Source: Massilia rubra (GTDB taxonomy: Bacteria; Pseudomonadota; Gammaproteobacteria; Burkholderiales; Burkholderiaceae_D). From it: a stretch of 64,000 bases of DNA. Both the position numbers and the translations under genes were made by a program. The notes below the pieces were generated by a model. The model worked only from the letters and a program-made list of their open reading frames with translations, was not told where the DNA came from and made no database searches. The DNA is taken from NCBI RefSeq assembly GCF_011682065.1, contig NZ_VUYU01000003.1, positions 248,001-312,000 on the forward strand, given 5' to 3'. This document shows positions 17,756-36,754 of this stretch, piece after piece (the stretch's first letter is position 1; each line of letters begins with the position of its first letter).

Positions 17756-17801
17756 GCATGCTTTCAACTTTCAATGTTCAACTCTCAACTTTCAAGCATG
17801 C
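17756..17801. repeat. Short repeat cluster upstream of the S66 gene
   Basis: An 11-base direct repeat TCAACTTTCAA occurs at 17764-17774 and 17785-17795, a 21-base period. It is enclosed by inverted ends GCATGCTT (17756) and AAGCATGC (ending 17801). It abuts the start codon of the S66 gene. Confidence 0.7.
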
Positions 17802-25520: not shown

Positions 25521-26213
25521 GTGCCGCTCGAACTGATGCGCGCCGCGCTGCGCCTGTTCTACACCAGTTTCACGCGCGCGCTGCCGTATGCCCTGGCGCC
25601 GGTGGTGCTGCTGTTCGCGCTGGCCGGGTCCGGCTTCCTTCTGGGCCAGACCGAGTATCTCGGCCAGGCCTGGGCCTTGTACCTGATCGGCGCTTTCCTG
25701 GTGCTGTGCCCGGCGCTGATGGCACCGCTGGTGGTGCAGGTACATGCCAGCGCGCATGCGCGATCGGTGAGCGCGGGCGAGGCGCTGCGGCGCGGCCTGC
25801 GCTGCTTCCTGCCGTGCCTGGCGGGGGCGGCGCTGTTCATGCTGGCGGTCGGGATCGGCTCGCTCATGTTCATCGTGCCCGGCACGTATTTGTTTATCGC
25901 GCTGGCATTCTGGTGGATCGCGCTGGTCGTCGACGGGCTGCCGGTACTCAAGGCCCTGATGAGCAGCCTGCGCCTGGTGCGCGGCCACTGGTGGCATGTG
26001 GCGTTCGGATTCAGCTATGTCTATCCGGTGGTGTTTTGCGTCAATGCCTTCGACGTCAACATGGTGTCGCTGTCGAACCAGGTTGTGGAAGCGGTGGTGG
26101 CCACGGTGATCGCCGTCGTGCTGTGCGCGCTGGTGCCGATGTTTGTGTCGGCCAATATGGTGGTGATTTACCATGACCTGACTTTGCGCCGCCAGCGCGC
26201 CAAGGCGGGCTGA
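25521..26213 (+). CDS. Multi-pass membrane protein of unknown family
   Basis: The 230-residue protein has about five or six membrane helices, e.g. LPYALAPVVLLFALAGSGFLLG, ALYLIGAFLVLCPALMAPLVVQV and AALFMLAVGIGSLMFIVPGTYLFIALAFWWIALVV. The layout resembles glycerophosphoryl-diester-type or YciC-like membrane proteins, without a clear family match. The start is uncertain: GTG 25521 is the first accepted start codon, yet the codons just before it (QDALFRLSPTPLVPLEL) also look coding and run back to the dacB stop, so a non-standard start near 25476-25494 is possible. Confidence 0.65.
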   Translation: MPLELMRAALRLFYTSFTRALPYALAPVVLLFALAGSGFLLGQTEYLGQAWALYLIGAFLVLCPALMAPLVVQVHASAHARSVSAGEALRRGLRCFLPCLAGAALFMLAVGIGSLMFIVPGTYLFIALAFWWIALVVDGLPVLKALMSSLRLVRGHWWHVAFGFSYVYPVVFCVNAFDVNMVSLSNQVVEAVVATVIAVVLCALVPMFVSANMVVIYHDLTLRRQRAKAG

Positions 26214-26215
26214 AG

Positions 26216-26449
26216 ATTGAGCCGAGATTCTGAACTCTGGACTGATACTGTGAAATTTGAGCCGATATCTCGAGCATTTGGGCCGATATCGAAATTTTGA
26301 GCCGATACTGGGATTTTGAGCCAATATTCCTGATATTTGAGCCGATTTAGCCAAATTTGAGCCGATACAAAGTAAATGTGAGCCGATTTTGGCGGATCTG
26401 GCCTGAATTTAGGTAGAATCGGCCCATAGATCGGCCCATGATCGGCCCA
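26216..26449. promoter_or_regulatory. Operator-like array: about ten 20-bp direct repeats plus three inverted half-units
   Basis: A 13-base unit TTTGAGCCGATAT recurs with starts at 26216, 26236, 26256, 26277, 26296, 26315, 26336, 26356 and 26377, with a degenerate tenth at 26397. The spacing is 19-21 bases. ATCGGCCCA, the reverse of TGGGCCGAT, then occurs at 26418, 26430 and 26441, spaced 11-12 bases. The last copy ends two bases before the ATG of the Fic-family gene. Units lie on one DNA face at about two helical turns, then one turn. The arrangement suggests cooperative binding by a repressor, possibly the winged helix of the adjacent gene. Confidence 0.85.
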
Positions 26450-26451
26450 AA

Positions 26452-27837
26452 ATGTTAAGTAAAGACCACCTGACACCCGAAGCTCTACTGCAAGCCTTTG
26501 GCGACATTGCCACGGCTGGGAACGAGTTCGTCTCGTCTTCCCAGCTAGTCAACGCGACTGGCTCAAGCAGGTCTACGGTGAAGAGAATGCTGTCGCGGTT
26601 GGCATCAGCCGGCAAGGTCGAGGTAACGAGCAGGGGCCGCGCAACGCGATATCGCTTGCTGACAAGCGATGCTACTGTTGTCCCTCAACCGACAGCAACA
26701 GCCACGCCCACCAGCGCCATCTCCACCGACGAGGGACCCCGCTGGAGCGCCGCCAGCCTGCAGCTCCGGCAACAACTGACACGGCCTGTGGCGGCCCGCA
26801 CCCCCGTCACGTATCACCGGGAATTTGTCGACAACTACAAGCCCAACGACACTTTCTTGCTGTCTCCTGAACTCGCGGACGAACTGGTTGCGCTCGGCCA
26901 CCTCCCCGGCCGGCTTCCGGCGGGAACGTATGCCCGTAAAGTGCTGGAGCAATTGCTGATCGACCTGTCATGGTCATCCTCTCGTCTCGAAGGTAATCGC
27001 TACACCCTTATGGATACGGAAAGGCTGTTCAAAAGCGGCGCTGCCGCGACCGACAGCGATGCCATCATGCTGCTCAATCACAAAGCTGCCATCGAGTTCA
27101 TTGTGGAGGCGGTTCCCCTGCAAGGGCTCAATACCCGTCTGGTTCGCAATGTGCACGCCATACTCATGCACGATCTCTTGGTTGATGCTGCGTCACTCGG
27201 CACGATGCGCACGCAAGTCGTCAACGTCAGCGGCAGCACCTACATTCCGTGCCAGGTCCCGGCGGTGCTGGAAGAGATGTTCGAGCGCATCATCCTGAAG
27301 GCGCAGCAAATCAAGAATCCTTTGGAGGCATCCTTTTTCCTCTGGGTAAACCTGGCGTACCTCCAGGCTTTCGAAGACGGCAACAAGCGCGTGAGCCGGA
27401 TCGCCGCCAATATTCCGCTGATGCTGTATAACCAGGCGCCACTGTCGTTTCTGGATGTGGATCGTGAAGATTATGCGCTGGCGATGATGGGTGTGTATGA
27501 AGCGTGCGATGTGTCGATGGCGGTTGACCTCTTCGAATGGACCTATCGGCGCTCCCAGACCAAGTACCAGGCCGCGGCGGGCGCGTTGGATGCGCCGGAT
27601 CCCTTCCGCGTGAAGTATCGCGAAGCACTCAGCGAAGCGGTGGGAACGGTGGTCCGGCGGCGACAACCGATGGCGGAGGCAATAGTTTCACTGGAATTGC
27701 CCGCCGAGGACATGCCACGATTCCAGGAATTGCTCGCACAGGAACTGAACATCCTTGCCGATTTTAACTGTGCGCGCTACCGGCTCGGCATGAAAGAAAC
27801 CCAAGCCTGGATTGACGAAGGCCGCCCTGTCCGCTAG
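26452..27837 (+). CDS. Fic-family protein with N-terminal winged helix and inhibitory motif
   Basis: The 461-residue protein has a winged-helix HTH at residues 24-70, with recognition helix SSRSTVKRMLSRLASAGKV. After a Thr/Pro linker comes the class II Fic inhibitory motif SWSSSRLEGN (S173-N182). The Fic core follows (about 205-345). The catalytic loop reads Q305-A-F-E-D-G-N-K-R-V-S-R316, so Gln replaces the His of the canonical HxFx[D/E]GN[G/K]RxxR motif. Canonical Fic enzymes transfer AMP to proteins through that His; this protein may be inactive or use another chemistry. I recall related proteins with a Gln here, so the change may be family-wide. There is no Shine-Dalgarno ahead of ATG 26452; an operator array abuts it. 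Confidence 0.88.
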   Translation: MLSKDHLTPEALLQAFGDIATAGNEFVSSSQLVNATGSSRSTVKRMLSRLASAGKVEVTSRGRATRYRLLTSDATVVPQPTATATPTSAISTDEGPRWSAASLQLRQQLTRPVAARTPVTYHREFVDNYKPNDTFLLSPELADELVALGHLPGRLPAGTYARKVLEQLLIDLSWSSSRLEGNRYTLMDTERLFKSGAAATDSDAIMLLNHKAAIEFIVEAVPLQGLNTRLVRNVHAILMHDLLVDAASLGTMRTQVVNVSGSTYIPCQVPAVLEEMFERIILKAQQIKNPLEASFFLWVNLAYLQAFEDGNKRVSRIAANIPLMLYNQAPLSFLDVDREDYALAMMGVYEACDVSMAVDLFEWTYRRSQTKYQAAAGALDAPDPFRVKYREALSEAVGTVVRRRQPMAEAIVSLELPAEDMPRFQELLAQELNILADFNCARYRLGMKETQAWIDEGRPVR

Positions 27838-36707: not shown

Positions 36708-36720
36708 CAGTATGAATCAG
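36708..36720 (-). promoter_or_regulatory. Candidate GntR operator half-site upstream of murQ
   Basis: Minus-strand CTGATTCATACTG lies 55-67 bases upstream of murQ. Its core TTCATACTG recurs once, with a second CATACTG, upstream of gntR at 37580-37597. Shared elements before the regulator and its likely target suggest a GntR site. The match is short. Confidence 0.4.
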
Positions 36721-36749
36721 GCAAAAGTAAAAACAGGCAAAAGTAAAAA
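36718..36749. repeat. Perfect 16-bp tandem duplication
   Basis: CAGGCAAAAGTAAAAA occurs twice head to tail at 36718-36733 and 36734-36749. It begins 5 bases downstream of the gntR stop and lies upstream of murQ. The duplication is exact, which suggests a recent slippage event. On the minus strand it gives two T-rich tracts that could act in termination. Confidence 0.9.
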
Positions 36750-36754
36750 CAGCC

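Follow-up and report, generated by a model that had tools for sequence, protein, structure and literature searches.

The array of short repeats that directly precedes a gene for a winged-helix (wHTH)-Fic protein in Massilia rubra is probably the operator of that protein, which would thereby repress its own gene. Within the window (the whole stretch of 64,000 nucleotides that was analyzed), a dozen units lead up to the start codon. Arrays recur in front of relatives, the bases of their units covary with residues of the recognition helix, the units are helically phased, exact pairs of the window's unit are unique to this array in the genome, and the catalytic histidine of the Fic domain is lost. 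The recurrence and the covariation lend good comparative support to the core proposal of the sequence-only reading, that the protein's own winged helix would read the operator; the reading as a whole is borne out in part.

In the most probable model, for which we infer binding, oligomerization, repression and ligand sensing, winged helices would dock side by side on 9-bp units that follow each other at one or two turns of the DNA, and the docked protein would cover the presumed -10 hexamer, transcription start and ribosome-binding region, so that its own gene is repressed. The Fic domain is missing the catalytic histidine, but its phosphate-binding loop and its inhibitory Glu/Arg pair are retained; it would most likely serve as a ligand-sensing and contact domain that tunes array occupancy. 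Because no other exact unit pair occurs in the genome, the wHTH-Fic protein should have a further job, for which the Fic body may act as a sensor or retain some activity.

The array, its promoter region and the encoded protein

Table 1. Features of the locus, in positions of the window
Feature	Position	Strand	Remarks
Upstream gene, YciC/UPF0259-like at best	25521..26213	+	Outside the array; weak family match
Block differing as a unit from Massilia mucilaginosa: array, promoter, codons 1 to ~61	26211..26635	+	Edges approximate, ~425 bp
Direct sub-array, nine 9-bp units TG(A/G)GCCGAT	26218..26387	+	Spacing 19-21 bp
Two very degenerate possible units	26389..26407 (starts 26389, 26399)	+	3 and 4 mismatches of 9 to TGAGCCGAT
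Putative -10 hexamer TAGAAT	26414..26419	+	Final two bases shared with the first inverted unit, as its opening two
Three inverted units TGGGCCGAT (ATCGGCCCA on the + strand)	26418..26449	-	Over the presumed transcription start and leader
wHTH-Fic gene, 461 aa	26452..27837	+	ORF; Pfam Fic E 2.2e-10; model; Foldseek
N-terminal winged-helix codons (residues 9-71)	26476..26664	+	HTH matches under curated cut-offs; model
Recognition helix (residues 40-52)	26569..26607	+	Positions 40, 44 and 45 covary with unit bases
Class II inhibitory motif SSRLEGN (S176 to N182)	26977..26997	+	63-row alignment
Fic motif QAFEDGNKRVSR, Q305 replacing the catalytic His	27364..27399	+	Aligned to the FICD motif histidine

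The direct sub-array had been described from the sequence as about ten copies of a 20-bp repeat; the array and its spacing are real, and the count is nine (starts at 26218, 26238, 26258, 26279, 26298, 26317, 26338, 26358, and 26379). Eight of the nine units have at most one mismatch to TGAGCCGAT, and the degenerate copy at 26238 has three. The two weak positions farther downstream (Table 1) may be relics, which would account for the earlier count of about ten. The three inverted units lie at 26418, 26430 and 26441, spaced 12 and then 11 bp, in keeping with the 11-12 bases that had been reported; the last copy, said to touch the ATG, ends 2 nt short of it. The order of direct and then inverted units, singled out as unusual, is likewise real here, but it is not an essential feature, since relatives mix orientations and some arrays are purely direct at 10 bp.

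Both sub-arrays are detected by Tandem Repeats Finder (TRF). The most frequent 8-mer family (at most one mismatch) reaches 11 copies in the 241 bases at 26211-26451, and no more than five copies were reached in 500 dinucleotide shuffles. Across the 7.57-Mb genome, exact unit pairs number three in direct orientation (gap 9-15), one convergent (gap 2-30) and none divergent (gap 1-30); all four lie inside the array, and reversed controls give none. The single unit TTTGRGCCGAT has nine matches genome-wide, six of them within the array, versus four for its reversed control. TRF also lists other short tandem repeats in the window, namely CAGGCAAAAGTAAAAA (2.2 copies at 36718-36752) and CTTTCAA (five copies at 17761-17795).

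The sequence-only reading took the lack of a Shine-Dalgarno sequence as a sign that the message may be leaderless. The lack itself is borne out, as none of the motifs GGAG, AGGA, GAGG or AAGGA lies 4-18 bases upstream of the ATG. A leaderless message is not supported, because TAGAAT as the -10 hexamer would place the mRNA start near 26426 and give a leader of approximately 26 nt, judging by its position. The -35 region is poor (best match 2 of 6), and a consensus promoter scan, which did not report TAGAAT, found no complete promoter on the + strand of the array. Among the loci examined, an SD-like motif is present at 7 of 38 and a -10-like hexamer at 19 of 38, overlapping a unit at 18 of those 19; an overlap of this kind is likely to arise by chance where units are dense, and it is weak evidence. 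A last unit with its start at -11 is seen at 13 of 39 loci. Gaps between neighboring units of the same orientation in the close group (L043 dropped, L011 included, gaps >45 ignored) fall at 10-11 bp in 99 of 197 cases and at 19-21 bp in 78, with a Rayleigh R of 0.885 at period 10, and one locus per helix type gives the same pattern (130 gaps, R 0.88). Gaps of one or two turns place the units on one face of the DNA.

The encoded protein passes the cut-off of the Fic/Doc family PF02661 (41.7 bits vs 24), and its best Foldseek matches are FICD (E 3.6e-8). The structure model (mean pLDDT 87.3, pTM 0.66) predicts a wHTH at residues 9-71 (helices 9-21, 29-36 and 40-52; strands 56-58 and 66-69), a low-confidence linker at 72-92 and a Fic domain at 226-321. 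A class II inhibitory motif of the form (S/T)xxxE(G/N) lies N-terminal to the Fic core; its S176, E180, G181 and N182 are invariant in 63 of 63 aligned sequences, as are Q305, N311, K312, R313 and R316. The catalytic histidine that AMP-transferring Fic proteins carry in HxFx(D/E)GN(G/K)R is absent, and Gln replaces it in the window protein and in every one of the 80 relatives taken as the best 80 of 150 loci. The Fic part is better conserved than the wHTH. The genome contains one match to the wHTH-Fic protein.

For the gene upstream of the array, the matches to Pfam UPF0259 (E 0.0029) and NCBIfam YciC (E 8.7e-5) are both far under the curated cut-offs, and no Pfam match was obtained at 0.001. 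No adjacent conserved partner of the kind that defines a fic-ficA module was found at 81 loci within 1.8 kb on each side, in an ORF comparison that would miss partners shorter than 80 aa; the most widely common flanking family occurs at 8 of 81 loci, seven of which are Achromobacter. The gene is patchy (matches in 80 of 392 family genomes, with weak generic Fic matches counted). Eight predicted viral contigs carry a near-full-length match, and none of 50,697 named-phage records covers 80% of the wHTH-Fic protein.

Arrays and recognition helices among the relatives

Relatives were collected by a scan of genome contigs, and the best 80 of 150 loci span beta- and gammaproteobacteria, Chlamydiae, Verrucomicrobia, Acidobacteria and desulfo-bacteria. 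Loci matched in the wHTH only (L149-L156), where the wHTH lies in the C-terminal half of another protein, were dropped. By eye, most upstream regions of the relatives bear repeats, with a unit that differs from the window's: TGCACCGAT in Massilia, TGAGCAGAT in Paraburkholderia, TGAGCTGAT in Achromobacter, TGGGCTGAT in Dyella, TTGAGCTGCA at a 10-bp period in some Pseudomonas, and TGGCGCGA or TGTCGCAA in much of the distant group. A search of homologs for the same unit, suggested from the sequence, finds arrays at the same place, but with units that are mostly different.

A strict repeat test, which demands a count above all 60 shuffles, was applied to 81 loci (the window and the best 80 of 150 relatives); five without a usable start or incomplete (L011, L031, L036, L048, L067) were skipped, and 50 of the remaining 76 passed, the window included (33 of 39 close and 17 of 37 distant loci). 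Upstream regions of other ORFs at the same loci passed in 5 of 123 cases. A second set yielded 23 of 49 (L101, L110, L111 and L117 lacking a start, and L122 repeating L069) and a third, with identical sequences removed, 25 of 46, which brings the total to 98 (50 + 23 + 25, with that one repeat). Homologs of like domain structure without an array, named with the sequence-only reading as part of what would refute it, may exist among the 20 of 37 distant relatives that fail the strict test, though several of these have three to four sites by eye.

Three loci with natural deletions, each a single case, bear on the link between wHTH and array. L031, without a wHTH, has no array (best count 2, reached in 60 of 60 shuffles), in L048 a remnant of the array persists after loss of the wHTH (count 4, reached in 2 of 60), and L011 keeps the array (count 6, 0 of 60) and has lost its promoter and N-terminus. 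Upstream of 2501 in L036 (Candidatus Burkholderia verschuerenii), an array and wHTH codons are visible and the frame is seemingly interrupted, which gives the impression of a symbiont's gene copy in decay. L072, a MAG titled Chlamydia trachomatis, carries the gene and falls near environmental Chlamydiae in the tree, and its label is doubtful. Two family copies in one genome can differ in unit (L097/L224, L013/L227, L192/L253, L098/L226) or have it in common (L105/L225, L109/L228). A like layout with another effector domain is seen in HipA-family YjjJ genes with an N-terminal HTH (L160-L179), which often have two to four short units upstream, one of them at the start codon (AATCGTTTCAT, TATCTATTCA, AATCGTTAC); one of these 20 regions (L167) passed the repeat test. 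The window genome also harbors a YjjJ-type HipA gene above the family cut-off (G000:C107:322870-324171, - strand).

The bases of the unit change with residues of the recognition helix. In the close group (38 rows, with a tree built from the Fic part only), all 8 rows with R44 have a purine at unit base 6 and all 30 rows with K44 a pyrimidine; this table is perfect and reflects a single event, and it was rejected as independent support. A link between W40 and T at base 6 was discarded with 5 + 1 exceptions among 38 rows. In the distant group, Y, H, A or F at residue 45 goes with TTGCGC sites and R or N with TGnCG. On a Fic-part tree of 69 rows with at least three sites each (excluding 11 rows with fewer, as well as the window, L092 and L097-L100), Y, H, A or F goes with TTGCGC and any other residue with TGnCG in 69 of 69 rows (table 60/0/0/9), and residue 45 and site class change six times each. 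Independent pairs number four on supported branches and six on all; the sign test gives p 0.125, and the perfect table forces such pairs to agree.

The residue-45 classes had been set after the first loci were viewed, and hold-out loci with unviewed upstream regions were therefore tested. Among 49 such loci, one lacked an HTH, and 35 of the other 48 had at least three sites; all 35 agree (table 33/0/0/2), two rows being Y45. L192, a further Y45 row, shows TTGCGC twice and TGnCG not at all. The set is partly redundant (L183-L185 are identical, and L180 and L182 nearly so) and TGnCG in some R45 rows may be background only, so that the informative part consists of the Y45 rows and the lack of TTGCGC majorities elsewhere. 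Mantel tests on whole helices, which are coarse, indicate across 76 loci that array similarity tracks Fic identity more than whole-helix identity (partial 0.412 vs 0.216); the partial helix term exceeds all 499 permutations over all loci, does not do so within the close group (67/499) and is weak in the distant group (25/499). Two further attempts were abandoned: a rule joining K41 to TGTCC, seen by eye at six loci (L144-L146, L198, L199, L245), is broken by L202, and unsupervised EM motif finding on both strands produced palindromes, which were not used.

A comparison was also made with Massilia mucilaginosa (L012), with which the window has the upstream gene in common. In 60-base steps, identity is 85-97% in the left flank (25524-26183), 43-60% over 26184-26483, 60-77% over 26484-26663 (43-68% within 26184-26603 and 77% in 26604-26663), and 87-100% in the right flank (26664-27803); the right edge lies at the RATRYR motif codons, near 26636. 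In the protein, 340 of 356 residues of the Fic part are identical versus 38 of 72 in the wHTH, and the unit is altered along with the block (TGAGCC in the window vs TGCACC). Among ten pairs of the first set with a Fic identity of 0.95-0.999, the wHTH identity is 0.48 for this pair and at least 0.89 for the others; in a second alignment, one of ten such pairs stands at 0.70 and the rest at 0.91 or above. The simplest reading is that the block was exchanged in one piece, and fast joint divergence would be the alternative. No donor of the block was found; the nearest wHTH to either is that of Massilia frigida L010 (0.60 and 0.65). Alcanivorax L050, distant from the window in the Fic tree, has SKSTVKR vs SRSTVKR in the window and the same TG(A/G)GCCGAT units.

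Rival readings of the array and of the Fic domain

Self-repression is not the only arrangement that could account for such a region. An unrelated host regulator might bind the array while the Fic winged helix acts elsewhere, and the poor -35 of the window would suit this reading. It is nevertheless very unlikely, because the unit class shifts with the protein's own helix residue at six places in the tree and in the hold-out, the unit differs between sister species in which most of the gene is alike, and unit pairs are absent elsewhere in the genome. The protein might also be an activator at its own promoter, where upstream copies would recruit polymerase and those farther downstream would limit it. 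The weak -35 and the many copies upstream of the putative promoter speak for activation, but we regard it as unlikely: where a -10-like hexamer exists (among the 38 loci examined), the sites nearly always overlap it, and the closest studied type of relative, CccR, is described as repressing itself (PMC9755527). Iterons are repeated short direct units. The array resembles them, and 26 of 72,556 plasmid records carry a relative at 80% coverage or more; an iteron, a partition site or the end of a mobile element is still scarcely credible, as arrays stand directly before the gene start, the unit covaries with the gene's own helix, and no replication, partition or transposase family occurs among the seven ORFs tested around the gene (nucleoside-gate, S13 and M15 peptidases, GNAT, LysR, amidase, and one without a match).

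A different kind of objection is directed at the Fic body and could hold together with self-repression. The Fic domain may still be an enzyme with altered chemistry, in a self-limiting toxin or defense protein whose level the array keeps low. The stronger conservation of the Fic part, the patchy occurrence of the gene without a widely common neighbor, and a best PADLOC match to SoFic (E 5.5e-17) would fit; in addition, the case has been made by Khater and Mohanty that proteins of the His-to-Gln clade are not necessarily dead (PMC4454073), and Campylobacter fetus has a toxic Fic protein whose motif is degenerate (PMC5651007). Against this stands the universal replacement of the catalytic His among the best 80 of 150 relatives, and we consider the enzyme a distinct but minority possibility.

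It is tempting to speculate further that self-repressing wHTH-Fic proteins form a family of self-regulators that derives from Fic and spans phyla, and that combines a His-less Fic body as nucleotide sensor with a DNA-reading head and array exchangeable as one block and with a residue-to-base code; this broader picture is tentative, and we hold it to be somewhat less probable than its opposite. Were it true, one could read from the family how winged helices match residue to base. Where a gene brings along its own operator, DNA-binding domain and site are paired by nature (98 loci pass the strict array test), and such pairs, together with the parallel switch at six places in the tree, open part of the code by which winged helices recognize DNA to direct testing. 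The joint change of DNA-reading part and repeat between related bacteria provides a natural test case for the co-evolution of protein and site.

Relation to known systems

In the immunity regions of lambdoid phages, the DNA-binding part of the repressor and its operators are swapped together between otherwise similar loci. If head and array likewise move as one exchangeable block, incoming copies would escape resident control, as in phage heteroimmunity; the present case differs in that the gene is bacterial and one clear case is at hand. The antitoxin AbiEi carries a wHTH. AbiEi and Rv2827c bind DNA and repress their own promoter through several repeats, but belong to two-gene toxin-antitoxin operons with two or four 23-bp inverted repeats (PMC7319586). 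BldC and RdfS are oligomeric wHTH proteins, and BldC assembles head-to-tail on DNA with one turn per molecule, as 10-bp arrays would need; in the parts of that account consulted, no Fic domain is mentioned for either, and RdfS has no consensus motif (PMC11963761). In the literature covered on arrays and dead-Fic regulators, which included few subscription papers, no description of such arrays was found, nor was anything found on TubR.

Among Fic proteins, a fusion to a wHTH is common to the window protein, SoFic and CbFic2. The latter two combine Fic with DUF4172 and a C-terminal wHTH, and DNA alters CbFic2 activity; CbFic2 has the canonical His motif, and the sections consulted make no mention of an array (PMC10628234). 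That an HTH fused to Fic may regulate fic expression was proposed early (Kinch et al., 2009; PMC2686095). The His-to-Gln change is not new, since the window motif (QAFEDGNKR; QPFEDVNKR in relatives) fits the consensus Qx[FY]x[DE][GV]NKR of Doc clade D2, described from 45 sequences and recorded in 2015 without a role (Khater and Mohanty, 2015; PMC4454073). Members of this clade are usually single-domain, whereas the window protein has a predicted N-terminal wHTH, and the section on the clade mentions no DNA-binding domain, operator or array (PMC4454073). The present locus gives a functional handle on the clade, with a protein that is probably placed on its own promoter.

Self-repression by a Fic-HTH protein is also already known, from CccR of Yersinia pseudotuberculosis, a class II Fic protein with an HTH that represses its own promoter via short repeats (PMC9755527). 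CccR resembles the window protein in uniting class II Fic and HTH in one polypeptide and in the self-repression that is proposed here. By contrast, its HTH is C-terminal, its H192 is canonical and its operator is a single pair of 10-bp inverted repeats 26 bp apart, whereas the window protein has its wHTH at the N-terminus, Gln in place of His, and a dozen units before its gene.
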